Source: Acidobacteriota bacterium (lineage in GTDB: Bacteria > Acidobacteriota > Terriglobia > Bryobacterales > UBA6623). Taken from it: a DNA stretch of 64,000 nucleotides. A model generated the notes under the pieces. It ran no database searches and was not told where the DNA came from. It worked only from the letters and a program-made list of their open reading frames with translations. The position numbers and the translations under genes are program-made. Of this stretch, positions 17,695-42,058 are shown piece by piece (within the stretch, counting starts at the first letter, position 1; every line of letters starts with the position of its first letter). The stretch covers positions 1,467,896 to 1,531,895 of the forward strand of contig WGMB01000003.1 in assembly GCA_016125275.1 (NCBI GenBank), in the 5' to 3' direction.

Positions 17695-19383
17695 ATGGCG
17701 GCCCCTGTTCGGACGCTCGGCTGGCCCGGCATCGGCCTGCTGCCGTTGTTGCTTTGCGCGCCTGCGGAGGCCCAGGTCGTCTTCGAGGAGGCCACGGCGG
17801 AAGCCGGCCTGCGCTTCGTCCACCACGGCTCCCCGACGCCCCGGAAGTATTTGCCGGAGACGATGTCGGGCGGCGTGGCGATTCTCGACTACGACCGAGA
17901 CGGCTGGATGGACGTCTTCTTCGTCAACGGCGCCGAGCTGCTCTATCCCCAGCCCCAGGGCGTCGAGCCGAACAAGTCGTCCCCGGAATTTTGGAACCGA
18001 ATGTTCCGCAACCGCGGCGACGGGACGTTCGACGATGTGACTGAAAGCGTCGGGCTCGAGGGACGTGGGTACGGCATGGGCGCCGCCGTGGGCGACGTCG
18101 ACAACGACGGCTATCCCGACTTGCTGGTGACGCAGGCCGGGTCCGGGAGCGTCCCGGCGCTGACGCTGTACCGCAACGAGGGCGGCCGGCGTTTTCGGGA
18201 CGTCACCGCGGAGGCGGGCCTCGCCGCGCAGGGCTGGGCGACCAGCGCGGCCTTCCTGGACTACGACCGCGACGGCCTGCTGGACCTCTTTGTCGCACGC
18301 TACATGGACTACCGCTTCGATATCGACCACGGCTGCGGACTGGAGACGCCGGCCGGCCGGGCCTACTGCCATCCCGACCTGTTCGAGCCCGTTCCGGGCC
18401 TGCTGTTCCACAACGAGGGGGGCGGTAGGTTTCGCGACGTCAGCCGGGAGTCCGGCATCGGCGCGCATCCCGGCAAGGGGCTCGGCGTGGCCGTGGCCGA
18501 CTTCGACGGCGACGGGTTCGCGGACATCGCCGTCGCCAACGACTCGCATCCACAGTTTCTATTCCGCAACCAGGGCGACGGAACATTCTCCGAGGAAGCC
18601 ACCCTCTCGGGCTGCGCCTACGACGCCGACGGCCGAGAGTTCGCCGGCATGGGGATATCCGCCGCCGATCTCGATGCAGACGGCCGGCCGGACCTGTTCA
18701 TCACCACGCTGTCGCAGCAGCGCTACGCCTACTTTCGGAACCTGGGCGGCGGCCTGTTCGACTACCAAACCGACGCAAGCGGGCTGGGGACGCTCACCCG
18801 TCTGCTGGCGGGCTGGGGCGTGCAGGCGGCCGACTTCGACAACGACGGCCGGCGAGAAGTCTTCTTGGTCAACGGGCACGTGATGGACACGATCGAGCGC
18901 TCGCAACCGCACGTGCAGTATCTGCAAGCGCCGCGGCTGCTACGGTTTGCCGGCGAAGGCTTCGAGGACGTCTCGGAAACGGCCGGACCGCTGTTCGCGG
19001 TCGCCCGGGCCGGACGCGGCGCCGCCGTCGGCGACCTCGACAACGACGGAGACCTGGACGTGGTGGTCTCGAACCTCAACCAGCCCGCCTACCTGGCGCG
19101 CAACCAAAGCCGCGGCGGCTCGTGGATCGCCTTCGACCTGCGCGGCCGGGCGGACGCGATCGGCGCCAAGGCGACGGTCGTCCTGCCGGACGGGACCGAG
19201 CGCTCCGGCACGGCGGCGCCCTCCGGGAGCTACCTGTCGTCAAGCGACCCGCGCGTCTACCTGGGGCTGGGCGAGGCCGAGACGATTCGAGCCGCGCGCA
19301 TTGTTTGGCCGGACGGGCGGGAACAAGACCTGGGCGCGCTGGAGACCGGCAAAATCCACCAGATCCGCGAACCGGAACGTTAG
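17695..19383 (+). CDS. CRTAC1-family FG-GAP/VCBS repeat protein with ASPIC/UnbV domain
   Basis: 562 aa exported beta-propeller protein. A signal peptide (cleaved near APAEAQ) is followed by repeated FG-GAP/VCBS units, each with a D-x-D-x-D-G calcium-type loop (DYDRDGWMDVFFVNG, DVDNDGYPDLLV, DYDRDGLLDLFV, DFDGDGFADIAV, DLDADGRPDLFI, DFDNDGRREVFLVNG, DLDNDGDLDVVV). The C-terminus is an ASPIC/UnbV domain (GRADAIGAKATVVLPDG...LGLGEAETIRAARIVWPDG). These are predicted surface or periplasmic calcium-binding proteins in adhesion or polymer binding. The stop lies 25 bases before the CCA end of the converging tRNA-Phe, and overlaps by four bases the end of a reading frame coming from the other strand. 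Confidence 0.9.
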   Translation: MAAPVRTLGWPGIGLLPLLLCAPAEAQVVFEEATAEAGLRFVHHGSPTPRKYLPETMSGGVAILDYDRDGWMDVFFVNGAELLYPQPQGVEPNKSSPEFWNRMFRNRGDGTFDDVTESVGLEGRGYGMGAAVGDVDNDGYPDLLVTQAGSGSVPALTLYRNEGGRRFRDVTAEAGLAAQGWATSAAFLDYDRDGLLDLFVARYMDYRFDIDHGCGLETPAGRAYCHPDLFEPVPGLLFHNEGGGRFRDVSRESGIGAHPGKGLGVAVADFDGDGFADIAVANDSHPQFLFRNQGDGTFSEEATLSGCAYDADGREFAGMGISAADLDADGRPDLFITTLSQQRYAYFRNLGGGLFDYQTDASGLGTLTRLLAGWGVQAADFDNDGRREVFLVNGHVMDTIERSQPHVQYLQAPRLLRFAGEGFEDVSETAGPLFAVARAGRGAAVGDLDNDGDLDVVVSNLNQPAYLARNQSRGGSWIAFDLRGRADAIGAKATVVLPDGTERSGTAAPSGSYLSSSDPRVYLGLGEAETIRAARIVWPDGREQDLGALETGKIHQIREPER

Positions 19384-21599
19384 AACGAATCGAAAGGGAG
19401 GGGGGAGATGGTGGCCAGGGACGGATTTGAACCGCCGACGCCAGCCTTTTCAGGGCTGCGCTCTACCAACTGAGCTACCTGGCCGCAGTTCTGATCGTAG
19501 CCGCCTGGGGAAACGGCTGTCAATTGGGCCGGCTCCGGCAGCCCCGGCGGACCGCTCAGCCGGCAGACCGACAGAGCGTCGTCTCGGAAGCGTTCTTCGC
19601 AGCTCCAGCCGTCGGGCAAGCGTTCCAGGGCCTGCTCGGCGCGGTCCGCCGGAACGATCAGCCAGTCGTAGCGGGCGATGCGCAGATAGTCCGGCAGGAC
19701 GAGGAGCCCGTAGTCCGGGTCGGTCAGATTCTCATAGCGGATGCGGCCGGGATCGGGCGCGTACGCCCCGGAGTTGGCGCCGATGCTGAGGATCCAGTCC
19801 CGGGGCTTGGCCGCGGAGGACAGGTACTCGAGCGCGGGATAGGTGATGAGGGTGCGGCGCAGGTATTCGCGCTCGGAGATGCGGCCGGCGAAGAGCTCGA
19901 GCTGCGGGCCGTTGACGCTGGAGATCAGCGCAGGCATCAAGCAGAAGGCGAAGTTGGCGGCCAGTGCTACGTCGAGGGCCAGCCGGACTCTGGGGCCCAC
20001 AGCCTCGCGCCATGCGGCCAGACCGCCGGCGGTCATCAACACAAGGGCGCTCAAGGGCACGATGGCGTAGCGGATGATCGGCCAGACCGAGCCCCAGTAG
20101 AGGAAGAACAGCGCCGTGAAGACGAGCGTAGCGAGCCGCGCCGCACGTCCCGTGGCCGCCCGCCGAAAAAGCCAGCCGGGAACAAACAGCAGCAAGAAGA
20201 AGCCCATGGGGTTGGCCGAGGGGGACTCGAAGGCGTTGGGCCCGTCGAAATGGATCGTCCAAGGGATCTTCCAGTAGGGGATGCTGCGGGTCTCCACGGG
20301 GCGCATCTCGTTGGGCCGCAGCGACTCGACGGCCCAACTCATTTGGCTGGGATGAACGGGGTTGCCGGTCAGCAAATAAGCGCGCAGCGGCCAACCCAGC
20401 GCGAAAACGCTGAAGAGCCCAACCCAGAGCAAGGCTTCACGGACCGGGCGCCGCAGGCGGGGCAGGCGCCACAGGTAGAGCGCGCCCATGGGAGCGACAA
20501 CGAACGTCGCCGTATATTTGACGGCCATGCCGGAGGCCAGAAAGAAGACGCTCAACCGGAGCCAGCGAGAATCGTCCGCGCTCCGCAGCCGGCAGTACAA
20601 AGCGAGCGCGGCGAACAGGGCCAGCGCCAGATCGTTCTTGACCACGCTGCCCGTCCAGTGCACGAACGGCAGCGCGAACACGCTCGCCACGCCCACCCAG
20701 CGGGCCGCCGGCGACAGACCGAGCGTTTTGCCGACCAGCGCCAGCGCCGCCAGAGTCAGCGCGAACAGCAAGGGGGAAAGGAGTTGCGCGCCGGCCTGTC
20801 CGCCGAAGGGCCACTGGGCGGCCATCAGCAGCTCGAAGCTTTGCGGGTAGTAGGAGTAGTCCAGGAACGGTAACGGCTGCAGGGCGTGGCGCTCCACGTA
20901 GAAGCGAGCGGCCGGCAGGTGCATGGCGAGTGCGTCGTGCGCCAGCGCCGGCGCCAACGCGACCATGGCGGCCGGAACGATGAACACGGCGGCGAAGAAG
21001 CTGGAGACGCCGGCGGGAAAGCTTGTGGCGGCGCCAGAGGCCGCCCAGGCCGCCACGCTTCGGCGCAGCAACGGAATGCAGGCGGGCAAGTCGCGACGGC
21101 CCGCGAGCAGCGCCGCAAGCGTCAGCAAGCCGACCGGGCCCGGAGACAGTCCGCCGAGGAGGCCCACCAGGAACAGGGCGAAGGAGATCAGGGCGAACCC
21201 GCAGCCTGCCGCCAAAACCAGCGCCTCCAGCGGGTCGTCCTCGAGAAAGCCCAAACGGCGTAGAACCAGATGACCCAGCGCAAACGCCGCGGCAGCCAGG
21301 ACCAGGACGGTGAGGGCGGCAAGGGGCTTCCAGACCAGGACGGGCGCCGCCGCCAACGCGGCCAGCGCCGCCGGCTCGATGCGCCGGAGCCACCGCGGAC
21401 GCGCCCAGGCGTAGAGCAGAGAGGCGCCGACGAGCGCCGGCGCGACGATCCGGATCAGCGAGCCGAATAGAGGCGCCGAATCGTCGAAGGCGGCGAAGTG
21501 GCGCTGCACCGGATCGACGAACAGGACCGCCCAAGCGGCCAGCCAAGCCAGGGTGACGCCGCCCACGCGCACGGTCGGCCATCGACGAGGGCTTTCCAA
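19380..21599 (-). CDS. Polytopic membrane glycosyltransferase-like protein, frame reads through tRNA-Phe
   Basis: 739 aa as an open frame. It has 10-13 hydrophobic segments and resembles GT-C (GT39/GT83-like) enzymes: ALAHDALAMHLPAARFYVE in the first large loop, YYPQSFELL, and WTGSVVKNDLALALFAALALY. Such proteins transfer sugars from polyprenyl-phosphate donors on the outer face of the membrane. The start TTG at 21599 is supported by TAGATT ending 6 bases upstream; a GTG at 21572 is an alternative. The soluble C-terminus seems to finish around SVCRLSGPPG. The frame then continues through the spacer and the whole tRNA-Phe to a TAA at 19380-19382, giving a tail (AQLVERSPEKAG...) that is translated tRNA. 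A TGA in another frame at 19520-19522 suggests a small frameshift or sequence error. The last 40 or so residues are doubtful. Confidence 0.7.
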   Translation of the reverse strand: MESPRRWPTVRVGGVTLAWLAAWAVLFVDPVQRHFAAFDDSAPLFGSLIRIVAPALVGASLLYAWARPRWLRRIEPAALAALAAAPVLVWKPLAALTVLVLAAAAFALGHLVLRRLGFLEDDPLEALVLAAGCGFALISFALFLVGLLGGLSPGPVGLLTLAALLAGRRDLPACIPLLRRSVAAWAASGAATSFPAGVSSFFAAVFIVPAAMVALAPALAHDALAMHLPAARFYVERHALQPLPFLDYSYYPQSFELLMAAQWPFGGQAGAQLLSPLLFALTLAALALVGKTLGLSPAARWVGVASVFALPFVHWTGSVVKNDLALALFAALALYCRLRSADDSRWLRLSVFFLASGMAVKYTATFVVAPMGALYLWRLPRLRRPVREALLWVGLFSVFALGWPLRAYLLTGNPVHPSQMSWAVESLRPNEMRPVETRSIPYWKIPWTIHFDGPNAFESPSANPMGFFLLLFVPGWLFRRAATGRAARLATLVFTALFFLYWGSVWPIIRYAIVPLSALVLMTAGGLAAWREAVGPRVRLALDVALAANFAFCLMPALISSVNGPQLELFAGRISEREYLRRTLITYPALEYLSSAAKPRDWILSIGANSGAYAPDPGRIRYENLTDPDYGLLVLPDYLRIARYDWLIVPADRAEQALERLPDGWSCEERFRDDALSVCRLSGPPGLPEPAQLTAVSPGGYDQNCGQVAQLVERSPEKAGVGGSNPSLATISPLPFDSF
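19409..19484 (-). tRNA. tRNA-Phe (GAA)
   Basis: 76 bases, read on the minus strand. The acceptor stem GGCCAGG/CCTGGCC, D-arm GCTC...GAGC, anticodon stem CAGCC/GGCTG with loop CTGAAAA (anticodon GAA), and T-loop TTCAAAT are all visible. The 3' end A-CCA is encoded in the DNA. The gene lies in line with, and downstream of, the membrane glycosyltransferase gene whose reading frame has no stop before it. No integrase or duplicated 3' end is nearby. Confidence 0.97.
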
Positions 21600-21605
21600 G
21601 CGTCG

Positions 21606-21627
21606 AATCTAACACGGCTGCTACGAT
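21606..21627. promoter_or_regulatory. Divergent -10 elements of two glycosyltransferase genes
   Basis: Minus strand TAGATT (21606-21611) ends 6 bases before the TTG at 21599. Plus strand TACGAT (21622-21627) lies 30 bases before the GTG at 21658, which has the Shine-Dalgarno GGGGGAGGT at 21645-21653. One transcript therefore looks leaderless and the other has a conventional short leader. Confidence 0.4.
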
Positions 21628-21657
21628 GTCTTGTCTGCATCCCCGGGGGGAGGTGCG

Positions 21658-23340
21658 GTGGACAGCGCCCGGACGAACGGCTCCATAGCGGTCGCTTTGG
21701 TCGCATTGCTGGCGATCGGCCTCTGGCTGCGCCTGGACGGCAACGCCGAGCGGACGATCTCCCACATCGAGAGCTATGCACCGGGCATCGCTTACCCGGC
21801 GGGCTTCAGCGACCCTCCGGCGCGGCTCGATCAGCGAGCCAACCTGCTGTGGGCGATCAACGACGTCCATGGGCCGTTCTGGTACCTGTGGATGCTGCCC
21901 TACGCGCAGCTCTTCGGCACGGACTTGGCGACCCTGCGGCTGCCGGCGGCGCTGTGCGGCGTAGCGACGATCCTGGGAGTATTTCTGCTGGGGAAGCGCG
22001 CCGGCGGGGCCTGGGCGGGGCTGGCGGCGGCGGCGCTGCTCACCGGCGCAGGGCACCAGGTGTACTGGTCGCAGCGGGCTCGGTTCTACGCCTCGGCTAT
22101 CTGCTTGGCCGTCTGGACCACCGTCTGGCTGCTGGATCTGCTCGACCGCAAGAGCTTCTCGCCGGGACGCCTTGCGGCGCTGCTGGCGGGCAGCTTTGCG
22201 GGCCTGGCGACGCTGTACTACTACTGGCCGCTGTTCCTCGCGCAACTGCTGTGGACGGCTCTGGCCGAAGCCAAGCGGGGCCTGCGGCTGACGCTCTGGC
22301 TGGCCGTCTTGGGCCTGGCCGCCAGTCCTCTGCTGACGCTGGCCGTCTACCAGGCCCGCCCGGCGCCGTACTTGGCCTATCCCACCGCGGAGACCCTGGC
22401 GGGCTACTTCTCGTTCGGGTTCCTGTATGACCCGGCGATCGACGACGGGGTGATCGAGCGCGGTCAGGTGGGCGGCCGGGAGCTCGGCTTGGCGGTTGGC
22501 GCCGTGTTGCTGGCGCTGGCCTTGGCGAGCCGCGGCTCGGCGCCGCGGGTGGAGCCGAGCGGGGCGATCCCGGCGCCGCCGCTGTGGTTGGCCGCGCTGG
22601 CGACGGCCTCGTGCACGCTTCTGATCTTGGCGAGCGTCGGGCCGGCGGCGGAAGCGTTTCCACACAAGACGCGGTTGCTGTGGGCGACAGCGGCGTTCCC
22701 CGCGCTCGGGCTGGCGGCCTTCGCGGCGCTGGCGGGGCGCGGCGGGGAGCTTCTGCGGCGGATCGCCAAGACCGGCCCGACGTGGCTCGGCTCGCCCGTT
22801 GCGGCCTTGTTCATGCTGGCCTTGGGACCGCTGGCGATGGTGACGGCGGTGCACGAGATCACGCCCTTCTTCGCCCCGCGCGGCATGGCGCTATTTTCGC
22901 CGTTCCTGCTGGCGTTGTGCGGCGTGGGGCTGGCTCGCCTGGCGCGCAGCGGCGGCGCCGGAGCCCTGGCCGCGGCCGGGCTGCTGGTGGCGATGGTCGG
23001 GGTGCAGGCGGCCTCGATCCGCATCGTGCACAGCGAGCCGGGGGCCTTCGACTATCGCCGCATGGCGCTCGAGGTCCGCGAGCACATGGGGCCGGAAGAC
23101 CGGATCTTCGTGGGCCCGCACTGGTCCGTCACGCCCCTGTTCTACTACTGGCGCAACGAAGCAGACCGACTGGTGGGAGACCACTGGGCGCAGGCCGCCG
23201 GCCAGACCCGCCGCGTTTGGCTGGTGGAGGCCGAACGGCAGCCCCTGCCCGCCGACATGCTGCCCGCCCTGGCCGGATGGCGGCAGAGCGAGCAGCTCTC
23301 TGCCCGGGCCCTGCACGCCAAACTGTTCGAACGGCCGTAG
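21658..23340 (+). CDS. GT39-like membrane glycosyltransferase
   Basis: 560 aa polytopic protein of the PMT/ArnT-like GT-C superfamily (family GT39 style). Features are an early acidic loop after TM1 (HIESYAPGIAYPAGF), NLLWAINDVHGPFWYLWMLPYAQLFGTDL, LRLPAALCGV, and the characteristic YWSQRARFYASAICLAVW. About 11 TM segments precede a small C-terminal soluble part. GTG at 21658 was chosen for its strong Shine-Dalgarno; an upstream in-frame TTG at 21631 is less likely. It would transfer a sugar from a lipid-phosphate donor to a lipid or protein in the periplasm. It is the first gene of a seven-gene plus-strand glycan cluster. Confidence 0.8.
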   Translation: MDSARTNGSIAVALVALLAIGLWLRLDGNAERTISHIESYAPGIAYPAGFSDPPARLDQRANLLWAINDVHGPFWYLWMLPYAQLFGTDLATLRLPAALCGVATILGVFLLGKRAGGAWAGLAAAALLTGAGHQVYWSQRARFYASAICLAVWTTVWLLDLLDRKSFSPGRLAALLAGSFAGLATLYYYWPLFLAQLLWTALAEAKRGLRLTLWLAVLGLAASPLLTLAVYQARPAPYLAYPTAETLAGYFSFGFLYDPAIDDGVIERGQVGGRELGLAVGAVLLALALASRGSAPRVEPSGAIPAPPLWLAALATASCTLLILASVGPAAEAFPHKTRLLWATAAFPALGLAAFAALAGRGGELLRRIAKTGPTWLGSPVAALFMLALGPLAMVTAVHEITPFFAPRGMALFSPFLLALCGVGLARLARSGGAGALAAAGLLVAMVGVQAASIRIVHSEPGAFDYRRMALEVREHMGPEDRIFVGPHWSVTPLFYYWRNEADRLVGDHWAQAAGQTRRVWLVEAERQPLPADMLPALAGWRQSEQLSARALHAKLFERP

Positions 23341-23395
23341 GAACACGCCGCCGAGTGAGCCTCGCGGCCGCGGCCGAAGCAGTCAAAGGCCGTAG

Positions 23396-23401
23396 TACAC
23401 T
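23396..23401 (+). promoter_or_regulatory. -10 element (TACACT) upstream of the radical SAM gene
   Basis: GTAGTACACTAGGG; the same TACACT hexamer precedes starts at 17663, 26125 and 30487 in this window. It would give a leader of about 20 bases for the ATG at 23429. No clear -35. Confidence 0.35.
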
Positions 23402-23428
23402 AGGGTTTTCAGCAAGTTATTCCGGTTC

Positions 23429-24616
23429 ATGAACCTTTTCGAGCGCATCGCCCGGCACGCCCGTCTGACCTCGCAAAGCCTGCTGGGCGCGCCGAGCCCG
23501 CCGTTCCTGATCCTTTTCATCAACTCGATTTGCAACCAGAAATGCGACCACTGCTTCTACTGGCGCAACCTGAATCGCCGCGATGACTTGAGCTTCGAGG
23601 AGCTGGTGGCGCTGTCGGAATCGCTGGGCCGCATCGAGAACCTCAACCTCTCCGGCGGCGAGCCCTTCCTGCGCAAGGAGTTCGGCGCGGTCTGCCGGCA
23701 GTTCATCCGCCGCAACAAGGTCCGCCAGATCTACTGCCCCACCAACGGCTACTTCACCGACAAAGTGGCGGCGCAGGTCCAGGAGACGCTGAAAGAGCCC
23801 GGCCTGGAGCTGTTCGTCGCCGAGATCTCCCTCGACGGGCTGGGCGAGTTTCACGACCGCTTTCGGCACTCGCCGCACGCCTTCGAGAAGGCGATGCAGA
23901 CCTACGACGCGCTGGCGGAGATCCAGCGGCGCGACCCGCGGCTGCGCATTCACGCGATCTCGACCGGCACGGCGGTCAACATGGACGAGATCCGGCGGTT
24001 GACGACGTACCTGTTCGACCGCTGCCCGCAGATGGATCATCACAACCTGGTGCTGATCCGAGGCGACCGCAAGAATCCCTCGTTGGAAGGCCCTCAGCTC
24101 GAGGAGTTCCGCGAGCTCTACGGCTACATGCAACGGCTGTGGAAGTCGCGCGAGGAGGGCCGCTACGGCGCCCTCGCCGAGCCGGTGACGCAGTGGACGA
24201 AGACGCGTACCGCACAGGAGAAGCGCCAGGTGGCGCCGTGCCGGGCCGGCAACCTGAGCGCGGTCGTCTACTCCAACGGCGATGTCTCGGTCTGCGAGAA
24301 CCATCCGCCCATCGGCAACCTGCGGGAGGCGAGCTTCCCCGCGATCTGGCGCAGCGCGCCGGCTCGCGAGCGGCGGCAGTCGATCGCTCGCAAGCAGTGC
24401 TGGTGCACGAACGAGACCTTCCTGTGGCCGAGCGTGATCTACCACCCCTGGATGCTGGCGCGCTCTCTGGTCGGGGCGCGGGTGTGGCGGCCCGTGGAGG
24501 GGCTGCGGCCCGCCGAGAAGACCAACGTTTCACTGGCCCCGGACGCTCGTTCCGAAGCCAGCCTGGAACGCCTGGTCCAGATTCAAGCGCCCGGCGAGTC
24601 GGGCGTCCGCGGCTAG
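23429..24616 (+). CDS. Radical SAM protein with SPASM-like C-terminal cluster domain
   Basis: 395 aa. The radical SAM cluster motif C-x3-C-x2-C is CNQKCDHC at about residues 33-40, followed by the SAM-binding GGEP motif ([13 protein letters not shown]). The C-terminus has a reduced SPASM-like set of cysteines ([19 protein letters not shown], then KQCWC), which should hold an auxiliary Fe-S cluster. SPASM-type enzymes modify peptides, sugars or proteins. No precursor peptide is visible here, and the position between a GT-C enzyme and a flippase argues for a glycan or lipid substrate (inference). Its TAG stop lies inside a 15-base tandem repeat leading to the next gene. Confidence 0.88.
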
Positions 24617-24642
24617 TTTGCTGATTCCTAGTTTCCTGATTC
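24613..24642 (+). repeat. Tandem 15-base direct repeat before the flippase gene
   Basis: CTAGTTTGCTGATTC (24613-24627) is immediately repeated as CTAGTTTCCTGATTC (24628-24642), one difference. The first copy contains the stop of the radical SAM gene, and the second ends at the base before the flippase ATG. Each copy has a TANNNT hexamer (TAGTTT), the second 8 bases from the ATG, so the duplication also doubles a possible -10 element. Confidence 0.75.
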
Positions 24643-26073
24643 ATGGCGAAGCCCGGACTGGCGCGAAACTTTCTGTGGCTGACGGTCGGAGAGACCGCCG
24701 CCAAGGTCTTCAGTTTCCTGGCCTTCACGCACTTGGGGCGCACGCTCGGGCCGGAGCGCTACGGCGATCTGGAGTTCAGCATCGCCACGGTCGTCTTCTT
24801 CACGCTGTTCGTGCAGATGGGGTTGGGCTCCTACGGCGCACGGGAGATCGCCCGGACGCCTGAACGGGCGCAGGACCTGCTGGGCGAGATCTTCCAGTTG
24901 AGGTTGGCGATGGCAGCGCTCTCAGTGGCGGTGCTGCTGGGCTTCGCCGCGGTGATTCCCAAAGCGACCGACGTCCGGGAGCTGCTGGCGGCCTACGGGC
25001 TGAGCCTGCTGGTGACGCCGCTGCTGCTGCTGTGGTTCTTCCAGGGCCATGACGCCATGCACTGGGTGGCGGGGGCCAACTTGTTGCGGATCAGTGCGTT
25101 CGCCACGGCGGCCTTTCTGCTATTCCAGAAGTCCAGCCCGCTGTGGGCGGTGGGATTGTATGAGACCGGCGCGGTGCTGCTGTCGGCCGGGTTCGGGTTT
25201 TGGGCCGCCGGGGCCCGGATGGGCTACCGGCTGCCGCGGCTGCGCTGGAAGCCGGCGGCGCTGTGGCTCCACATGCGCAAGGGAGCGCCGATCGGCGGCT
25301 CGAACCTGGCTTGGGCCGCGCTGTGGTTCTTCCCGGTCGTGATCTTGGGGTTGCTGCGAACCGACGAGTCAGTGGGCTGGTTCGGAGCCGCGCATCGGGC
25401 AACGATGTCGGTTCACACGTTCGTCTGGTGGTACTTCTTCAACCTGTTGCCGGCGATCTCGCGCACGACCGCGCAGCCGCGCGAGGAGTTGCGCCGGCTG
25501 ATTGCGCCCTCGCTCGAGCTGACCAGTTGGGGAGGTCCGGCGCTGGCCTTGGCGCTCTCGCTGCCGGCCACGCAGTTGCTCAGCGTGGCTTACGGCGCGC
25601 AGTTCGCCGGAGCCGGACCGCTGCTGGCCGCGCTGATCTGGGCCATCCCGGTAACGCTGCTCAGCGGGCACTACCGGTTCATCCTGATCGCCTTCGACCT
25701 GCAGGACCGGTTGCTCTGGTGGACGCTGCTCTCGGCGGCGCTGGCGAGCGTGCTGACGATCGCGCTGGCGCCGCGATTCGGCGCGCTGGGGGCCGCTTGG
25801 GGCTTGGTCTCGGGCAACTTGCTGTGCTTCGCGCTGTGCTGCTGGACGGTCTACGAAGCCGTGGAGCCCATCGGCTTCGTCGGGGCCGTTTGGGGGCCGG
25901 CGCTGGCGACGCTGACAGCTCTGCTCGCCTCGGCGCCGTGGAGGGGCCAGCCGTGGCTCCGGACGGCCGGGGCCTTGGCCGTCTACTGCACGATCTTTGT
26001 GATCGTGGAGCGGCGGCGGATTCCACAGTGGAGCCGCCGGCTGCTCGGCGGAGCGGCCGTAGCCGTTCCGTAG
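24643..26073 (+). CDS. Wzx-like polysaccharide/lipid flippase
   Basis: 476 aa polytopic membrane protein of the MOP superfamily (Wzx/RfbX, polysaccharide biosynthesis protein). About 13-14 TM segments are visible. The N-terminal family signature is NFLWLTVGETAAKVFSFLAFTHLGRTLGPERYGDLEFSIA, with a mid-protein GAPIGGSNLAWAALWFFPVVILGLL. It would move polyprenyl-pyrophosphate-linked glycans from the cytoplasmic to the periplasmic face. Its neighbours (GT2, GT-C enzymes, radical SAM enzymes) and the O-antigen-ligase-like protein at 40844 fit a surface glycan pathway. Confidence 0.88.
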   Translation: MAKPGLARNFLWLTVGETAAKVFSFLAFTHLGRTLGPERYGDLEFSIATVVFFTLFVQMGLGSYGAREIARTPERAQDLLGEIFQLRLAMAALSVAVLLGFAAVIPKATDVRELLAAYGLSLLVTPLLLLWFFQGHDAMHWVAGANLLRISAFATAAFLLFQKSSPLWAVGLYETGAVLLSAGFGFWAAGARMGYRLPRLRWKPAALWLHMRKGAPIGGSNLAWAALWFFPVVILGLLRTDESVGWFGAAHRATMSVHTFVWWYFFNLLPAISRTTAQPREELRRLIAPSLELTSWGGPALALALSLPATQLLSVAYGAQFAGAGPLLAALIWAIPVTLLSGHYRFILIAFDLQDRLLWWTLLSAALASVLTIALAPRFGALGAAWGLVSGNLLCFALCCWTVYEAVEPIGFVGAVWGPALATLTALLASAPWRGQPWLRTAGALAVYCTIFVIVERRRIPQWSRRLLGGAAVAVP

Positions 26074-26076
26074 TCG

Positions 26077-26082
26077 TACACT
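26077..26082 (+). promoter_or_regulatory. -10 element (TACACT) before the GT2 gene
   Basis: TACACT directly abuts an ATG at 26083. A transcript from here would start around 26089 and exclude that ATG, which favours the in-frame ATG at 26125 as start. Confidence 0.35.
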
Positions 26083-26124
26083 ATGGAGTTGGCCCGCCGA
26101 GGCCGCCTCCCCCGCAAGAGCCTG

Positions 26125-26889
26125 ATGTCCGCCGCCGCCCGACGTTTGGATGTGGTGATTCCCGTGCTCAACGAGGCGCATGTCCTGCGTCACAGCGTGG
26201 AGACCGTCCTGGCGTTCCTGGAGCGCAGCTTCGACTTGGACTACCGCCTCGTGATCGTCGACAACGGCTCGACCGACGGCACCCACGAGCTAGCGCAGGA
26301 GCTGTCGTTCGAGCACGCCAGGGTGTACGCTCTGCGGCTGGAGCAGAGGGGGCGGGGGCGGGCGTTGCGGTACGCCTGGACGCACAGTCAGGCCGATTGC
26401 GCCTGCTACATGGACGTGGACCTATCGACCGACCTCGACGAGCTCCCCCTGCTGGTCGGCGCGATTCTGGACGAAGGCTACGACATCGCCATCGGCTCGC
26501 GGCTGCTGCCGCAGTCGCGGGTGACGCGCTCGCTGAAGCGGACCATCATCTCGCGCGCGTACAATCGGTTCTTGAAAGTCGCCCTGGCAACCCGACTCAG
26601 CGACGCCCAGTGCGGCTTTAAAGCCGTCAACCAGCGCGTGATCCGCGAGATCGTACCGCAGGTGCGCGACGAGAGCTGGTTCTTCGACACCGAGATGCTG
26701 GCCCTGGCCGAGCGCCGCGGCCTGCGTATCAAGGACTTGCCCGTGGTGTGGGCCGAGGACGACGACAGCCGCGTGAAGATTCTGCAGACCGCCTGGGACG
26801 ACATCCAGGGCGTGTTGCGGCTGCGCCGGCAGTTTCGCGCCGACGGCGAGCGCGTGAGCCGCGCCGCAGCCGCCGGGGGACCGCAATGA
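26125..26889 (+). CDS. Family 2 glycosyltransferase (polyprenyl-phosphate-sugar synthase type)
   Basis: 254 aa cytoplasmic GT2 enzyme of the dolichyl-phosphate glucose/mannose synthase type. Motifs: LDVVIPVLNEAHVL at the N-terminus, VDNGSTDGTHEL, the metal-binding acidic motif CYMDVDLSTDLDELPLL, and GFKAVNQRVI with a downstream WFFDTEMLALAERRGLRI. It lacks the C-terminal TM segments of some relatives. It would make a lipid-phosphate sugar donor for the GT-C enzymes on either side. The ATG at 26125 is chosen because a -10 abuts the alternative ATG at 26083. The stop overlaps the next gene by four bases (ATGA). Confidence 0.85.
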   Translation: MSAAARRLDVVIPVLNEAHVLRHSVETVLAFLERSFDLDYRLVIVDNGSTDGTHELAQELSFEHARVYALRLEQRGRGRALRYAWTHSQADCACYMDVDLSTDLDELPLLVGAILDEGYDIAIGSRLLPQSRVTRSLKRTIISRAYNRFLKVALATRLSDAQCGFKAVNQRVIREIVPQVRDESWFFDTEMLALAERRGLRIKDLPVVWAEDDDSRVKILQTAWDDIQGVLRLRRQFRADGERVSRAAAAGGPQ

Positions 26890-28250
26890 AGGTCCTGCTG
26901 GTCAACCCTTCCCAGGTCCGCTTGGTGCAGAAGAAGGGCCGGATCTACGCTCGCCGCTGGCCCCCGCTGGATTTGGCGACGACGGCCGCAGCGCTCGAGC
27001 GCGAGGGCGTGACGACCGACGTGATCGACGGCAACGCCGAAGGCCTGGCGCCGTCGGAGTTGGCGGCGCGAGCGCGCGGCTACGACAAGATCTTCGTCAC
27101 CTCCACCAGCCTCGACCGCTGGCAGTGTCCGCATTTGGACCTGCGGCCCTTTCTGGCCACGGTCGAAGCCTTGCGGCCGCTGGCGCCGGAGCTCTATGTG
27201 CTGGGCAGCCACGGCACCGTGCGGCCGGCCGAGATGCTCGAGGCGACCGGGGCGACGGCGGTGGTCCGCGGCGAGCCGGAACGGACCGTCGTCGAGCTGG
27301 CCGCCGGAGGGAGCTTGGCCGCCACCCGGGGCCTCACCTGGCGCGACGGCGACCGCACCGTCCACAACCCCGAGCAGGCGCCCGTGAAGCTCGACGAGCT
27401 GCCGCTGCCGGCCTTCCACAAGCTGCCGATGGAGCGCTACAGCTACGAGGTGCTGGGCGACCGCTTCAGCCTGTTCGAGATGTCCCGCGGCTGCGCCTCC
27501 AACTGCAACTTCTGCTTGCTGGAGACCTACGGCGTGGGCGTGCGCAAGAAGTCCGTCGACACGCTGGCGCGCGAAGTGGAGCATGCGGTCAAGAACTTCG
27601 GCGTGAAGACGGCTTACTTCATCGACCTGGAGTTCACGGTGCTGCGCAAGCAGGCGCTGGAGTTCTCCGACTGGCTGGCTCGCCAGAGCTACGACTTTCG
27701 CTGGTGCTGCCAGACGCGGTTCGACCTGGTGAATCCGGACATGCTGCGGCAGATGAAGCGGGCCGGCTGCCGGCTGATCCACTTTGGCGTCGAGGCCGGC
27801 AGCGAAGAGCTGCTGGACTGGACCAACAAGAAGATCACCATGCGGCAGATCGAGGACGGGATGCGGATGGTGAAGGAAGCCGGCATCGAGTCGGCCTGCT
27901 TCTTCATCTTCGGCTTCCCCGGCGCGCGCCAGAAGGAGATGGACGACATCTACCGCTTCGCCGTGAAGCTGAACCCGACCTACGCCCTGTTCCACGTGGC
28001 CGCGCCATACCCCGGCACGGCGCTCTATGAGCAGGTGAAGAACGACCCGAACGTACGATTCAGCGACGACACGCTGTTCCCGGAAGCGATCGAGGGACCG
28101 CTGACGGTCTCCGAGCTCAAGCGGATGACCCGCACGGCCTACCTGAAGTACTACACGCGGCCGTCGTACTTGCTCTCGCGGCTGGGCAAGGGCGAAGTGC
28201 GGGCGCTGTGGAACCAAGCGAATCTGTTCTGGCAGTTCGTGCGCGCCTGA
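26886..28250 (+). CDS. B12-binding-domain-type radical SAM protein
   Basis: 454 aa. The N-terminal 160 residues have a cobalamin-binding-like Rossmann domain (MKVLLVNPSQV, PPLDLATTAAALEREGVTTDVIDGNAEG) but no DxHxxG motif. The radical SAM domain has CASNCNFC (SRGCASNCNFCLLE), then the BchE/Elp3-like order FIDLEFTV and HFGVEAGSEELLDWTNKKIT. Members of this class carry out methylations, rearrangements or lipid modifications such as hopanoid side-chain chemistry. The ATG overlaps the GT2 stop, so both are co-translated. A role in modifying the glycan or its lipid anchor is inferred from position. Confidence 0.87.
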   Translation: MKVLLVNPSQVRLVQKKGRIYARRWPPLDLATTAAALEREGVTTDVIDGNAEGLAPSELAARARGYDKIFVTSTSLDRWQCPHLDLRPFLATVEALRPLAPELYVLGSHGTVRPAEMLEATGATAVVRGEPERTVVELAAGGSLAATRGLTWRDGDRTVHNPEQAPVKLDELPLPAFHKLPMERYSYEVLGDRFSLFEMSRGCASNCNFCLLETYGVGVRKKSVDTLAREVEHAVKNFGVKTAYFIDLEFTVLRKQALEFSDWLARQSYDFRWCCQTRFDLVNPDMLRQMKRAGCRLIHFGVEAGSEELLDWTNKKITMRQIEDGMRMVKEAGIESACFFIFGFPGARQKEMDDIYRFAVKLNPTYALFHVAAPYPGTALYEQVKNDPNVRFSDDTLFPEAIEGPLTVSELKRMTRTAYLKYYTRPSYLLSRLGKGEVRALWNQANLFWQFVRA

Positions 28251-28270
28251 GGGCGCGGAGACCTCATTTC

Positions 28271-29875
28271 TTGTCTCGCAGAATCGCGGTTCAGCTCCTG
28301 GGCTCGGCCCTGTTGGCGGCGGCGCTGATCCCGTCAGCTAGCTGGGAGGCGGTTCTGGGCGCCGAACCGGGCGCACTCGAGTGGGGGCCGGCGCTGTTCC
28401 GTGCGCTGCTGGCGTTCCATGGGGCCGCGTTGGTTTGGGCCGGACGCCGCCCTTGGGATCTCTGGCTGCGCGGCCCGGGCTTCGAGCGGAGCGAGTGGCT
28501 GGCGCTGGGGGGCCTCGTGGCGGCGGCGCTGGCGCTGCGGCTCTACCGCCTGAACACGCAGCTCTGGGTGGACGAGGTGTTCATGCTGCTCGACTTCGGC
28601 CGGGCGCCGCTCGAGCGCATTCTCACGATGTTTCCGTCGCAGAACCAGCACATGCTCTACTCGCTTTCGGCGCGGGCGTGCGTGGGGCTGTTCGGCGAGA
28701 GCCCTTGGGCCCTGCGGCTGCCGGCGGCGCTGCTGGGCGCAGCCACGACGGTTCCGCTGTATGGGCTGGGCCGCAAGCTCTGGGACCGCCGGATCGCGCT
28801 GGCGGCGGCGGGCTTGCTGACGGTCTCTTACCACCACATCTGGTTCTCGCAGAACGCCCGCGGCTATTCGGCCCTGCTGCTGTTCGCCGTGTGGGCGACG
28901 TGGCTGTGGCTGGAAGCGGTCGACCGCAACGAACCGGCGCTATGGATCGGGTACGGGGCGACGCTGGCGCTGGGGCTGGGCTTCCACCTGACGATGCTGT
29001 TCGTGGCGGCGGCGCACGGGCTGGTCTGGCTGGCCGGGCTGGCGCGCGGTGCGGGCATTCCGGTGAGGGGGCCTCTGCTGGCTTGGCTGTTCGGCGCGAC
29101 GGCCACGTTGCAGATCCATGCGCTGGCGCTGCCGGAGTTCTTCTCGTCGGCGCTGCATGAGGCTTCGATGGATTCGGAATGGACCGAGCCGCTGTGGGTT
29201 CTGGCGGAGATGGTGCGAAACCTGAAGATCGGCTGGTCCGGCAGCGCCGTGCTGGCCGTGGGCGGCGTGGTGCTGGCGGCCGGTTGGCTGGATTTGGCGC
29301 GGCGACGCTGGGACGCGGCCTGGATCTTCGGGCTGGCGCCCGCGCTGGGCGGCGGCCTGACGTTGGCGATGGGTCACAACCTGTGGCCGCGCTTCTTCTT
29401 CTTCGCCATGGGCTTTGCGTTGCTGCTGGCGCTGGGGGGCGCGTTCGCACTGCCACGGCGGCTGTTCGGCGAACGGGCCGGCGCAAGGTGGGGAACGGCC
29501 GTTTCCGCCTTGCTGATCGCGGCTTCGGCAGCCACGCTACCGCGCGTCTACGCCCTGCCCAAGCAGGATTTCGAGGGCGCCCGCGCCTTTGCGGAAAGCG
29601 GTTCGGCGGCCGTCATCGCGCCGGGCATCGCCGGACGCATCTACCACGGCTACTACGCGCCGGCTTGGCTCGCGGTCGAGACCCCCGAGGAGCTGGCGGC
29701 GGCCCGCTCCCGCGCTCCCGGCGCCTGGCTGGTCTACACCCTGGCGCCGGAGATCCGAGCCTTCCAACCGGCCGTGTGGGACACCATCGAGCGCGACTAC
29801 GAACCGGTACGACGCTTTCCGGGCACGCTCGGCGAGGGCGAGATCGTGGTCTGCCGCCCCAAGGAGAACCGCTGA
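28271..29875 (+). CDS. GT39-like membrane glycosyltransferase
   Basis: 534 aa polytopic GT-C protein. The first periplasmic loop has the acidic D-E pair (LNTQLWVDEVFMLLDFG), then LRLPAALLGAATTVPLYGLGRKL and WFSQNARGYSALLLFAVWATWLWLEA, closely matching GT39-type enzymes. About 11 TM segments and a short C-terminal soluble part (about residues 440-534) follow. TTG at 28271 with GGAG about 10 bases upstream is preferred; a GTG at 28208 inside the previous gene is the alternative. Its last base overlaps the next gene (TGATG). It differs clearly from the GT-C enzyme at 21658, so the two probably add different sugars or act on different acceptors. Confidence 0.78.
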   Translation: MSRRIAVQLLGSALLAAALIPSASWEAVLGAEPGALEWGPALFRALLAFHGAALVWAGRRPWDLWLRGPGFERSEWLALGGLVAAALALRLYRLNTQLWVDEVFMLLDFGRAPLERILTMFPSQNQHMLYSLSARACVGLFGESPWALRLPAALLGAATTVPLYGLGRKLWDRRIALAAAGLLTVSYHHIWFSQNARGYSALLLFAVWATWLWLEAVDRNEPALWIGYGATLALGLGFHLTMLFVAAAHGLVWLAGLARGAGIPVRGPLLAWLFGATATLQIHALALPEFFSSALHEASMDSEWTEPLWVLAEMVRNLKIGWSGSAVLAVGGVVLAAGWLDLARRRWDAAWIFGLAPALGGGLTLAMGHNLWPRFFFFAMGFALLLALGGAFALPRRLFGERAGARWGTAVSALLIAASAATLPRVYALPKQDFEGARAFAESGSAAVIAPGIAGRIYHGYYAPAWLAVETPEELAAARSRAPGAWLVYTLAPEIRAFQPAVWDTIERDYEPVRRFPGTLGEGEIVVCRPKENR

Positions 29876-30447
29876 TGGGCCCGTTGCGCCTCTACCTGTT
29901 TCTGGGGCTGGTGGCCCACAAGGCGGTTTGGGAAGTCTTGAAACGGCGTCTGCCGCCCGAGCGTCGCCGGACCAAGCGAGCCCTGCCGGCGATCGCGCAG
30001 CTCGCCAAGGCCGTCAAGGTCGTCCTGCTGCTGGGCTTTCTGGCCCAGCCGTTCCTGCCGACCCTCCTACCCATCGCCCCGGACCCGGCGCCGCTGGAAC
30101 TGCTGGGCGGGCTGCTGTACACGGTCGGGCTGGCGACGGCGATCGCGGGGCGGGTGCAGCTCGGCTCGCAGTGGTCGGACATCGAAGCGGCCGGGCTGTT
30201 GCCGGGCCACAGACTGGTCGGCGAAGGGATCTACCGCTACCTCCGCCACCCGATCTACGCCGGAGACTTGACGATGCTGCTGGGCTTCGAGCTGGCGCTG
30301 AACTCCTGGCTCGCCTTGGGGGTCGGGCTCCTCGTCCCGGTGGTGGCGCGCCAAGCGCTGCAAGAGGAGAAGCTGCTCGCCGCGAAGCTGCCGGGCTACG
30401 CGGAGTACCGCCGCCACACCAAAGGCTTCATCCCCTTCATCGTCTGA
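29875..30447 (+). CDS. Isoprenylcysteine carboxyl methyltransferase-like membrane protein
   Basis: 190 aa, 4-5 TM segments, ICMT/PEMT-type fold. The C-terminal SAM-binding signature is recognisable: GIYRYLRHPIYAGDL..., with RQALQEEKLLAAKLPGYAEYRRHTKGFIPFIV at the end. Bacterial homologues methylate lipids or small isoprenoid-linked substrates; a CaaX protein substrate is not expected. The ATG shares its A with the TGA of the GT39-like gene, so it closes the glycan cluster. It may methylate the lipid carrier or a sugar head group (inference). Confidence 0.82.
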   Translation: MGPLRLYLFLGLVAHKAVWEVLKRRLPPERRRTKRALPAIAQLAKAVKVVLLLGFLAQPFLPTLLPIAPDPAPLELLGGLLYTVGLATAIAGRVQLGSQWSDIEAAGLLPGHRLVGEGIYRYLRHPIYAGDLTMLLGFELALNSWLALGVGLLVPVVARQALQEEKLLAAKLPGYAEYRRHTKGFIPFIV

Positions 30448-30486: not shown

Positions 30487-30966
30487 ATGGAGCCCCGCCC
30501 GGTTCGCGCCTCGCATTCCACACTCTCCGAGCTCGCCCTGCCGAACGAAGCCAACGGCCTGGGGACGCTGCTCGGCGGACGCATCATGCATCTGATCGAC
30601 ATCGCCGGAGCGCTGGCGGCGGCGCGTCACGCCCGTCAGTTCGTCGTCACGGCCTCGTTCGACCACATGGATTTTCTGGAGCCGGTGATGATCGGCGAGC
30701 TCGTCGAGCTGCACGCCTCGGTGAACCGGGCGTTTCGGACGTCGATGGAGGTGGGAGTCAAAGTCTTTGCCGAGGACCTGCGCAAGGCCTCTAGGCGGCA
30801 CGTCGCCTCGGCGTACCTGACCTTCGTGGCGCTCGACGCGGACCGACGGCCGCAGCCGGTGCCCCCGGCGCTGCCCGAGACCGACGAGGAGAAGCGGCGC
30901 TATGAGCAGGCCGGCGAACGCCGCACCTACCGGCTCAGCCAGCGCCAGCGCCGGCGGGCGCAGTAG
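30487..30966 (+). CDS. Acyl-CoA thioesterase, hotdog fold (YciA/BFIT type)
   Basis: 159 aa single hotdog domain. Family features are PNEANGLGTLLGGRIMHLIDIAGALAAARHA (helix with the catalytic Asp) and VVTASFDHMDFLEPVMIGELVEL. It hydrolyses acyl-CoA in the cytoplasm. The basic, Arg/Gln-rich tail (about residues 135-159) is probably disordered. The stop codon directly abuts the stop of the converging reductase gene, with no intergenic base. Confidence 0.88.
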   Translation: MEPRPVRASHSTLSELALPNEANGLGTLLGGRIMHLIDIAGALAAARHARQFVVTASFDHMDFLEPVMIGELVELHASVNRAFRTSMEVGVKVFAEDLRKASRRHVASAYLTFVALDADRRPQPVPPALPETDEEKRRYEQAGERRTYRLSQRQRRRAQ

Positions 30967-40038: not shown

Positions 40039-40854
40039 TCAGCGCTGGTCGCGGCGCAGGGTCATGCCGCCGTCCGCCGTCAGGACTTGGCCGGTGACAT
40101 AGCTGTCCGGCTCGATCAAGAAGCGCACCGTGCGGGCGATGTCTTCGGCCCGGCCGAAGCGCGGGATCACTCCCGAGGCGACGAACGGATCGTACTTGCC
40201 GCTGCGCAGGCTCGTCTGCGCCATGCCCGCCATGGTCGCGCCGGGCGCCACCACGTTGACGCGAATGTTGGGCCGTCCGCCCACCTCTTTCGCCAGGACC
40301 AACGCGGCCTGCGTCAGCGCGGCCTTGGCCGAGGCGTAGGCCGTGGAGCCCTCGAACGGATAGCCGCCTTGCATGCTCGAAAACAGCACGATGGACCCCG
40401 GGGTTTCGGCGTCCCGCAGGCGCTCGGCGGCGGCGCGGGCGAGTAGGACGGGGCCCAGATAGTTGGCCTCGAGCGAAGCCCGCAGGGTCTGCTCGTCGGC
40501 GCCGCGGGCCGGATCGCCCGAAAACGCCACGAGCGCCTCGAGCGACGGGCCGGCGGCAGTGAGCAGGGCTTCGCGGGTTTCCACCGTGTTCAGGTCGCCG
40601 GCGACGAGCTCGACCGCGGGCGAGCCGGCGGCGCGGGCGGCGGAGGCCAGGGCCTCGGCGCGTTCGCGGTTCGAGCGATAGCCGAGGACGAGCCGCGCGC
40701 CTTCGCGCGCCAGCAGAATCGCAGTGGCTGCACCGAGGCCTCCCGAGCCGCCGGCCAGTACGACCGTCCGGCCGGCCAGCGTCCGCTCGGGAAAATCGAA
40801 CTCGAAGCGCTCGTAGCGCGCCGCGAGGGATTCGTCGAAGTAGTCAGACGGCAT
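40039..40854 (-). CDS. Short-chain dehydrogenase/reductase
   Basis: 271 aa SDR enzyme. The cofactor motif is VVLAGGSGGLGAATAILLAREGARLVLGYRSN (the Arg after the second strand suggests NADPH). Catalytic Ser is in IVLFSSMQGG and Y-x3-K is YASAK, followed by the usual NIRVNVVAPGATM. The substrate is unknown. ATG at 40854 overlaps the end of the O-antigen-ligase-like gene by 11 bases, so it is co-translated with it; this hints at a sugar or lipid substrate. It converges on the small hypothetical gene. Confidence 0.88.
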   Translation of the reverse strand: MPSDYFDESLAARYERFEFDFPERTLAGRTVVLAGGSGGLGAATAILLAREGARLVLGYRSNRERAEALASAARAAGSPAVELVAGDLNTVETREALLTAAGPSLEALVAFSGDPARGADEQTLRASLEANYLGPVLLARAAAERLRDAETPGSIVLFSSMQGGYPFEGSTAYASAKAALTQAALVLAKEVGGRPNIRVNVVAPGATMAGMAQTSLRSGKYDPFVASGVIPRFGRAEDIARTVRFLIEPDSYVTGQVLTADGGMTLRRDQR

Positions 40855-42058
40855 GATCTCGAAGGGGCTCGCTGTCGGTGCGCTGCGCGGCGTAGCCAAC
40901 GGCGATCAGGGTGAGCCACAGCGCCAACACCTCGCTGTCTCCCAAGGTGACGTCGAAGGCGCCGACCACCAAGACGGCGAGCGTTCCGGCCAGTCCGGCC
41001 TGGATGGCCGCGCGGTCGTCACTGCGGCCCGGGGGCGTGCGTCGCAGCGCGCGGGCGTGGTCGAGCAGGATCTTGCCGAGCAGCCAGAGCAGAAACAAGA
41101 GAGCCGGCAGCCCTCGCTCGGCCGGAAAGTGTACATAGATGCTGTGCAGGTGGCCGTAGTAGGCCGGCGGCAGCTCGGTCACGTCCGGGTCCAGATAGTC
41201 GCGGAACAACGGGCCGACGCGCTCGGGGCCCACGCCGAACAGCGGATGGTCTTCGATCATTCGCGCGCCGGTCTTCCACATCAGCAGGCGCCCGGCGTTG
41301 GCGGAGGCGTCGCCGATCGAACGCACCCGCTGCTGCAAGGCCGCCGGCGAAGCCGCCAGCAGAGCCACGACACCGATCGGGGCCAGCCACAGCAGCTTCG
41401 GCCGCGCCTGTGCCACGAAGTACGCCGCCAGCGCCAGCAACGCCAGCCAGACGCTGCGAGTGAAGGTCAAGACCAGACCGGCGGCCAAGCACACGGCCAC
41501 GGCCCGCCAGGTCCACATGGCGCGCCGCACCGAGGTCCCGAAAAGCAGGCTGGCGACCAGCGCCAGGAACACCAGCAGGCCGGCTTGGGAGAACGTCATC
41601 CAGTGGCTGAAGAAGCCCGTGATGCGGTCCGGCGCGTAGAACGTGCCAAAATCCACGCCCGCAGCCCGAGCCGCCAGCACGCGCACGGCGAACTGCGCCA
41701 CGCCAACCGCGATGGCGATGAAGCAGGCCACGAACCAGCCCTGCAGCAGCCTCCGTCGGCGATCGGTCGAGTCGAAGAGTGTGTACGCCACCGGCAGCGC
41801 CAGGAAGACGTAGAACTTCTTGAATTGGGGAGCCGCTTCGGCGAAGTGCCCGTTGGCGATGGCCGAAACGATCGTCCAACCCAAGAACAGGCCCAGCGGG
41901 AGCGCGATCGACGGCATGCGCCAGCGCTTGCGCGACGCCAACAGCAAAGCGAGCGTCAGCCCCAGGGCCAGGTGGGAGAGGGCGATCGAAAACAAGCCCG
42001 CGACCGAGAACACGAAGGCCCCGGCCGCGGCGGCTTCTTCCAGGCGCTGCTGGGACAT
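40844..42058 (-). CDS. O-antigen ligase / Wzy-like polymerase family protein
   Basis: 404 aa polytopic membrane protein with about 10-11 TM segments. The characteristic large periplasmic loop between late TMs contains FGVGPERVGPLFRDYLDPDVTELPPAYYGHLHSIYVHFPAERG, matching the Wzy_C / WaaL signature. It transfers or polymerises polyprenyl-linked glycans in the periplasm. It may work with the flippase and glycosyltransferases at 21.6-30.4 kb although it is 10 kb away (inference). The start ATG at 42058 has CATACT ten bases upstream. Confidence 0.87.
   Translation of the reverse strand: MSQQRLEEAAAAGAFVFSVAGLFSIALSHLALGLTLALLLASRKRWRMPSIALPLGLFLGWTIVSAIANGHFAEAAPQFKKFYVFLALPVAYTLFDSTDRRRRLLQGWFVACFIAIAVGVAQFAVRVLAARAAGVDFGTFYAPDRITGFFSHWMTFSQAGLLVFLALVASLLFGTSVRRAMWTWRAVAVCLAAGLVLTFTRSVWLALLALAAYFVAQARPKLLWLAPIGVVALLAASPAALQQRVRSIGDASANAGRLLMWKTGARMIEDHPLFGVGPERVGPLFRDYLDPDVTELPPAYYGHLHSIYVHFPAERGLPALLFLLWLLGKILLDHARALRRTPPGRSDDRAAIQAGLAGTLAVLVVGAFDVTLGDSEVLALWLTLIAVGYAAQRTDSEPLRDHAV

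Follow-up and report, generated by a model that had tools for sequence, protein, structure and literature searches.

Which product could be assembled by an operon that brings two different radical SAM enzymes together with a Wzx-type flippase, a GT2 enzyme, GT-C enzymes and an ICMT-like methyltransferase? The locus lies in an Acidobacteriota genome of 7.55 Mb (G000), within a stretch of 64,000 nucleotides (C14:1467896-1531895) that was analysed as a whole and is referred to here as the window. A preliminary description had listed seven packed plus-strand genes and a divergent GT-C gene; the ORF and Pfam checks confirm all of these families, and the eight ORFs, gA to gH, sit where that description placed them. 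In our opinion, it most probably encodes the assembly of an envelope glycan on a lipid carrier, with a sugar edited by gF and perhaps also by gC.

Gene content of the locus

The features, with the basis for each assignment, are as follows.

19380..21599, minus strand: gA, divergent GT-C protein (PMT_2); Pfam.
21631..23340, plus strand: gB, GT-C protein (PMT_2, Agl23-like); Pfam, and relatives (30-36%) upstream of gC in L051, L053 and L057.
23429..24616, plus strand: gC, radical SAM protein with a twitch-like SPASM region (probably one auxiliary cluster); Pfam, invariant cysteines.
24643..26073, plus strand: gD, Wzx-type flippase; PF01943.
26083..26889, plus strand: gE, GT2 of the polyprenyl-phosphate-sugar synthase type; PF00535, ArnC 9hwj, DPM synthase 5mlz.
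26886..28250, plus strand: gF, radical SAM protein with an N-terminal B12-binding fold, in a clade of its own; Pfam, fold match, tree.
28208..29875, plus strand: gG, GT-C protein (PMT_2), exact start uncertain, ORF overlapping gF by 43 nt; Pfam, co-inheritance.
29875..30447, plus strand: gH, integral membrane methyltransferase of the ICMT/PEMT type; Pfam, motifs, 4a2n match.

The gaps from gB to gH measure 88, 26, 9, -4, about -43 and -1 nt, where -43 depends on the uncertain start of gG. The starts of gF and gH were refined to 26886 and 29875, and the ATG of gH is preceded by AAGGAG. A 4HBT thioesterase gene lies 3' of gH on the same strand (30487-30966); it was not found alongside the conserved gene set in relatives. 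Matches resembling promoters and terminators do not clearly exceed chance expectation here. Every protein of the window falls short of the NCBIfam cut-offs, and the gene order around gatA is not conserved, even within the family.

All three GT-C proteins pass the PMT_2 criterion (PF13231 above 26.1 bits), with scores of 34.6 bits for gA, 28.1 for gB and 53.2 for gG. The gA ORF reads in frame across an entire tRNA-Phe gene (19409-19484), its stop codon lying beyond it, and a promoter-like site, TTGACA-18-TACGAT, accompanies this tRNA gene in the 3' end of gA (19380-19523, minus strand). A genomic island at tRNA-Phe is unsupported: the 3' end of the tRNA is not repeated in the window, and the operon shows no compositional shift. 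Relatives of gA are absent from the syntenic loci, except for one 26% match in L128. Thus, gA, which had been counted with the locus, is not conserved with the other genes and probably stands outside it.

The flippase assignment of gD is clear (PF01943, Polysacc_synt, 100.5 bits against a cut-off of 28.2), and the export role proposed for it is supported. In gE, PF00535 (Glycos_transf_2) scores 91.7 bits, and no NCBIfam equivalog cut-off is reached; ArnC and DPM synthase, its closest relatives of solved structure, place it in the synthase type, in agreement with the earlier proposal that it makes lipid-phosphate sugars. gH exceeds the Pfam cut-offs for both PEMT and ICMT (PF04140, 35.1 bits against 24). 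Its residues R124-H125-P126, E164-E165 and Y175 are invariant, the RHP-Y-G, EE and PGY positions are kept in six homologues, and the nearest solved structure is an archaeal ICMT (4a2n, E 6.8e-9). The PF04140 match and the RHPxY...EE signature place gH in the ICMT superfamily, but not in the isoprenylcysteine methyltransferase equivalog NF040696 (49.2 against 160 bits); against the LmtA profile it scores 20 of 325 bits.

gC scores above the curated Pfam cut-offs for Radical_SAM and SPASM and carries the CX3CX2C motif, which makes it a member of the radical SAM superfamily. Eight of its cysteines are invariant in 77 sequences, namely those of CX3CX2C (C35, C39, C42), C199, C271, C289, C324 and C326. 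A full SPASM domain, with two auxiliary clusters, conserves seven C-terminal cysteines (CX9-15GX4C-CX2CX5CX3C-C); gC departs from this pattern, having only the latter five invariant outside the core motif, which would fit one auxiliary cluster, as in twitch-like regions. The predicted model of gC (pLDDT 87.5) matches SkfB (Z 24.8), BlsE (22.5), SuiB (22.0), DesII (19.9) and BtrN (16.0). SkfB acts on a peptide, and BlsE, DesII and BtrN act on sugars or cyclitols; the fold matches of the model do not decide between peptide and sugar.

gF is also a radical SAM protein by its Pfam score, above the cut-off, and by its CX3CX2C motif. The B12-binding Pfam match is just below the cut-off (31.4 against 32.1 bits), and a B12-type fold is present in the model (pLDDT 84.8), which matches AprD4 (Z 34.4, 411 residues), MgmA (32.2), OxsB (30.5) and TsrM (28.7). 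With its orthologues (38-68%), gF forms one clade of ten members, with support of 100/100, distinct from HpnJ as well as from the B12 radical SAM proteins encoded in other gC loci.

Co-inheritance and neighbourhoods of gC, gG and gH

The sample for co-inheritance comprised 396 genomes of the phylum; with the own genome set aside, 395 others remained. At E-value thresholds of 1e-100 for gC, 1e-20 for gH, 1e-60 for gG and about 1e-80 for gF, orthologues occur in 8, 6, 9 and 8 of these genomes, respectively. By one-sided Fisher tests, in which the kinship of the sampled genomes is ignored, gH is found together with gG in 6/6 gH genomes (p 2e-11) and with gC in 5/6 (p 4e-9), gC with gG in 7/8 gC genomes (p 1e-12), gF with gC in 2/8 of each (p 0.009), and gF with gG in 1 genome (p 0.17). 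Thus, gC, gG and gH are rare but co-inherited, and it is on these tests that we base the view that the grouping of the genes is more than chance. The conserved neighbourhood on which the preliminary description had staked its proposal does exist among the 395 other genomes.

The three genes share a contig, over a span of about 7-30 kb, in six genomes (G021, G334, G302, G357, G423 and G324, the last without gH). One recurring run is Wzx-GTC3-gG-GT2d-gH-FAD oxidoreductase, GT2d being a GT2 of the polyprenyl-P-sugar-synthase type; a second is GT4-GT4-deacetylase-gC-GT2e. Locus L200 (G334) has the uninterrupted run gC-Wzx-GTC3-UbiA-gG-GT2d-gH, in which the UbiA protein is a decaprenyl-phosphate phosphoribosyltransferase (258 bits, NCBIfam cut-off 234); it also encodes a glucose-1-phosphate cytidylyltransferase (375.5 bits, cut-off 300.25) and a different, KedN5-like B12-fold radical SAM protein (L200:3885-5939), the start motif of which recurs in L160 and G302. 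UbiA-type proteins are visible by a common start motif in G302, G357, G423 and G418. The earlier suggestion that the GT-C enzymes use lipid-P-sugar donors gains from the GT2d-type genes that relatives' loci add and from the phosphoribosyltransferase of L200. In the own genome, parts of the set are dispersed: an FAD oxidoreductase-GT2e pair lies at C1, and a relative of the phosphoribosyltransferase (35%) at C13.

Beyond the phylum, 84,980 species genomes were scanned and yielded 134 gC relatives; the best 80 of the 134 loci were analysed, with genes called by a simple coding-score script. Many of the relatives are MAGs, and several loci are duplicated under different identifiers (e.g., L035 = L053, L036 = L059, L037 = L089). 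These best 80 come from Acidobacteriota, Planctomycetota, Chloroflexota, Gemmatimonadota, Myxococcota, Pseudomonadota, Cyanobacteriota and Calditrichota, so that the family spans at least eight phyla, at 53-70% identity across them. Among genomes close to the host, gC orthologues at 60-69% are patchy. On the gC tree, members of one phylum tend to cluster but are spread over several places: 19 label changes, where 7 would be the minimum, lead us to reject simple vertical inheritance, and horizontal transfer appears likely. The relative in L090 is carried by a plasmid of Pseudanabaena biceps, close to GT2 and B12 radical SAM genes, which suggests mobility.

Neighbour clusters in the best 80 of 134 gC loci include GT2, often paired (38), GT4 (31), Wzx (30), FAD oxidoreductase (24), gG-type GT-C (20), GT2d (17), polysaccharide deacetylase (15) and ICMT (6), and a gD homologue is the gene immediately after gC in 16/76 loci. 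L036 and L037 contain gC, gD, gG and gH; L039 contains the first three before the contig ends. Where at least 8 kb is available on either side of gC (n=39), at least one glycan-assembly family is present in 33 loci and at least two in 28, whereas in 6 of the 39 gC is solitary, without glycan families. One solitary orthologue (58%) is that of Ruegeria sediminis (L116:10001-11104), where no gene within 10 kb belongs to a recognised glycan family. Planctomycetota copies without recognised glycan neighbours occur in L064, L065, L072 and L076, and in the latter three gC adjoins divergent genes whose large products, about 900-970 aa long, look secreted. Paralogues of gC (28-35%) have none of gD-gH nearby, except that an HpnJ-type match lies beside one own-genome paralogue, itself a weak one (28%).

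The gE-gF module and a possible pathway

A GT2 gene adjoins gF in 7/10 members of its clade. The pair gE-gF is adjacent in L152 (51%/44% identity) and L159 (58-74%/68%), and, as the window also shows, gF is flanked by PMT_2-like GT-C genes in L150, L152 and L155; in L156 the neighbours of gF are other large membrane proteins (PTPS_related, YfhO). The 16-kb contig of L159 (JACRKW010000230.1) brings together gC, a gG-like GT-C gene, GTC3, gE, gF, GT2d and ICMT; it contains no Wzx match, and its gE frame has one internal stop in the assembly. In L161, a gE homologue (62%) is found just upstream of GT2d-ICMT. Judging from these arrangements, gE-gF is a separate, swappable module, and the window order gC-gD-[gE-gF]-gG-gH therefore looks like module exchange within a glycan locus. 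The single seven-gene set first proposed stands insofar as its families recur together; it divides, however, into two modules, gC/gD/gG/gH, typical of a widespread class of glycan locus, and gE-gF, the latter of which also occurs alone beside GT-C genes.

As to substrates, step order, radical reactions and one common product of both modules, we infer the following. On the cytoplasmic side, gE would load polyprenyl phosphate with a sugar, and gF, whose gene begins within the last bases of gE, would edit this sugar by radical chemistry; enzymes of the gF fold perform deoxygenation, epimerisation or C-methylation, any of which may apply here. gC would carry out a second radical modification, perhaps on a sugar or cyclitol precursor. 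The lipid-linked glycan would then be flipped by gD, and on the periplasmic side gG and gB would add sugars from polyprenyl-P donors. Finally, gH would methylate the lipid-linked product on a carboxylate or phosphate, the groups methylated by ICMT and LmtA. We lean towards this complete scheme, in which the operon and its two modules make one lipid-linked envelope glycan, as somewhat more probable than not. Gene context lends good support to the envelope-glycan role; sugar editing can be fairly attributed to gF and with weaker grounds to gC. A more specific version, that gC and gF represent two uncharacterised families building deoxygenated, branched or carbocyclic sugars directly on the polyprenyl-linked glycan, is tentative and in our view not the likelier outcome. 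By Pfam, the operon lacks an initiating enzyme, a polymerase and a ligase; this, the solitary gC copies and the peptide-acting best fold match of gC weigh against the scheme. The nearest O-antigen-ligase-type (Wzy_C) gene lies 10 kb from the operon on the minus strand (40844-42058), adjoining a long TPR protein; it could encode the ligase for the glycan of the operon or for another one.

The two modules may instead be independent neighbours, gE-gF being a lipid-sugar module unrelated to the gC/gD/gG/gH glycan module and sharing no product with it. Most genomes have gE-gF without gC-gH or the reverse, and their joining in the window may be incidental because gF coincides with gC in so few genomes and with gG in only one. 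Yet gE-gF sits inside the window run, overlapping at the gE/gF and gF/gG boundaries, the distant L159 again has it between GTC3 and GT2d-ICMT, and the gE homologue of L161 directly precedes GT2d-ICMT. We regard independence as rather doubtful, though it deserves the most weight among the alternatives.

It is unlikely, to a greater degree, that gC is a peptide or protein maturase of the RiPP type and only happens to accompany genes for surface glycans. Peptide maturation is the role of many SPASM proteins, SkfB is the best structural match of gC and SuiB is another, and solitary copies exist; against this, no conserved ORF of 20-85 aa was found within 2 kb of gC in 76 loci, a search that did detect self-matches, the glycan context is strong, and the sugar- or cyclitol-acting BlsE, DesII and BtrN are among the matches as well. 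Very improbable, finally, is the capture by the locus of a hopanoid-modifying enzyme, with gF having HpnJ function. HpnJ (TIGR03471) is indeed the best NCBIfam match of gF, and in the pathway to bacteriohopanetetrol cyclitol ether HpnJ acts after HpnI, a GT2 (PMC12583986). The score, however, is 160.8 bits, far under the cut-off of 577.6, gF falls in its own fully supported clade, and the genome has a true HpnJ elsewhere (C7:23912-25321, 758.9 bits); the identification of gF as HpnJ itself is rejected on these grounds.

If the lipid-linked glycan pathway is right, the locus would indicate that Acidobacteriota, Planctomycetota and Chloroflexota have an envelope glycan not yet described, and gC would stand for a strongly conserved radical SAM family awaiting functional assignment, whose conserved neighbourhood makes its substrate class directly testable. 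For hopanoids, a lipid-borne sugar is known to be remodelled by radical chemistry (HpnJ); we know of no established case on a polyprenyl carrier.

Comparison with known systems

The preliminary description knew of no pathway with exactly this set, and a literature search, covering open-licence papers only, likewise gave none that was relevant. The Wzx flippase, the GT genes and the packed operon are shared with Wzx/Wzy-type polysaccharide and O-antigen loci. Unlike those, the window operon has no Wzy, initiating transferase or ligase; it adds two radical SAM enzymes and an ICMT-like methyltransferase, and GT-C enzymes dominate. The mycobacterial decaprenyl-phospho-arabinose/GT-C arabinan pathway is similar in that L200 has a decaprenyl-P phosphoribosyltransferase adjoining gG and in that the GT-C enzymes would be expected to take polyprenyl-P-sugar donors. 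The window differs in lacking a phosphoribosyltransferase gene, the 35% relative lying elsewhere, at C13, and radical SAM enzymes are, to our knowledge, not part of the arabinan pathway.

Among individual enzymes, gH resembles ICMT in its RHPxYxG and EE motif region and in its match to the archaeal enzyme, but is well under both the isoprenylcysteine equivalog and the LmtA scores. AprD4, a radical SAM 1,2-diol dehydratase (6fd2) that acts on a sugar, shares with gF a fold over its whole length, a B12-type Rossmann domain plus a radical SAM barrel; the two have 20% identity, and gF is under the cut-off of the AprD4 profile NF033070 (84.9 against 500 bits). In HpnI-HpnK-HpnJ, a GT2 and a B12-fold radical SAM enzyme remodel a lipid-borne sugar to give bacteriohopanetetrol cyclitol ether (PMC12583986). 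gF differs from HpnJ in score and clade, and the window locus has no hopanoid genes; this system is nevertheless the closest precedent for the pairing of a GT2 with a radical SAM enzyme of B12 fold in remodelling a lipid-borne sugar.
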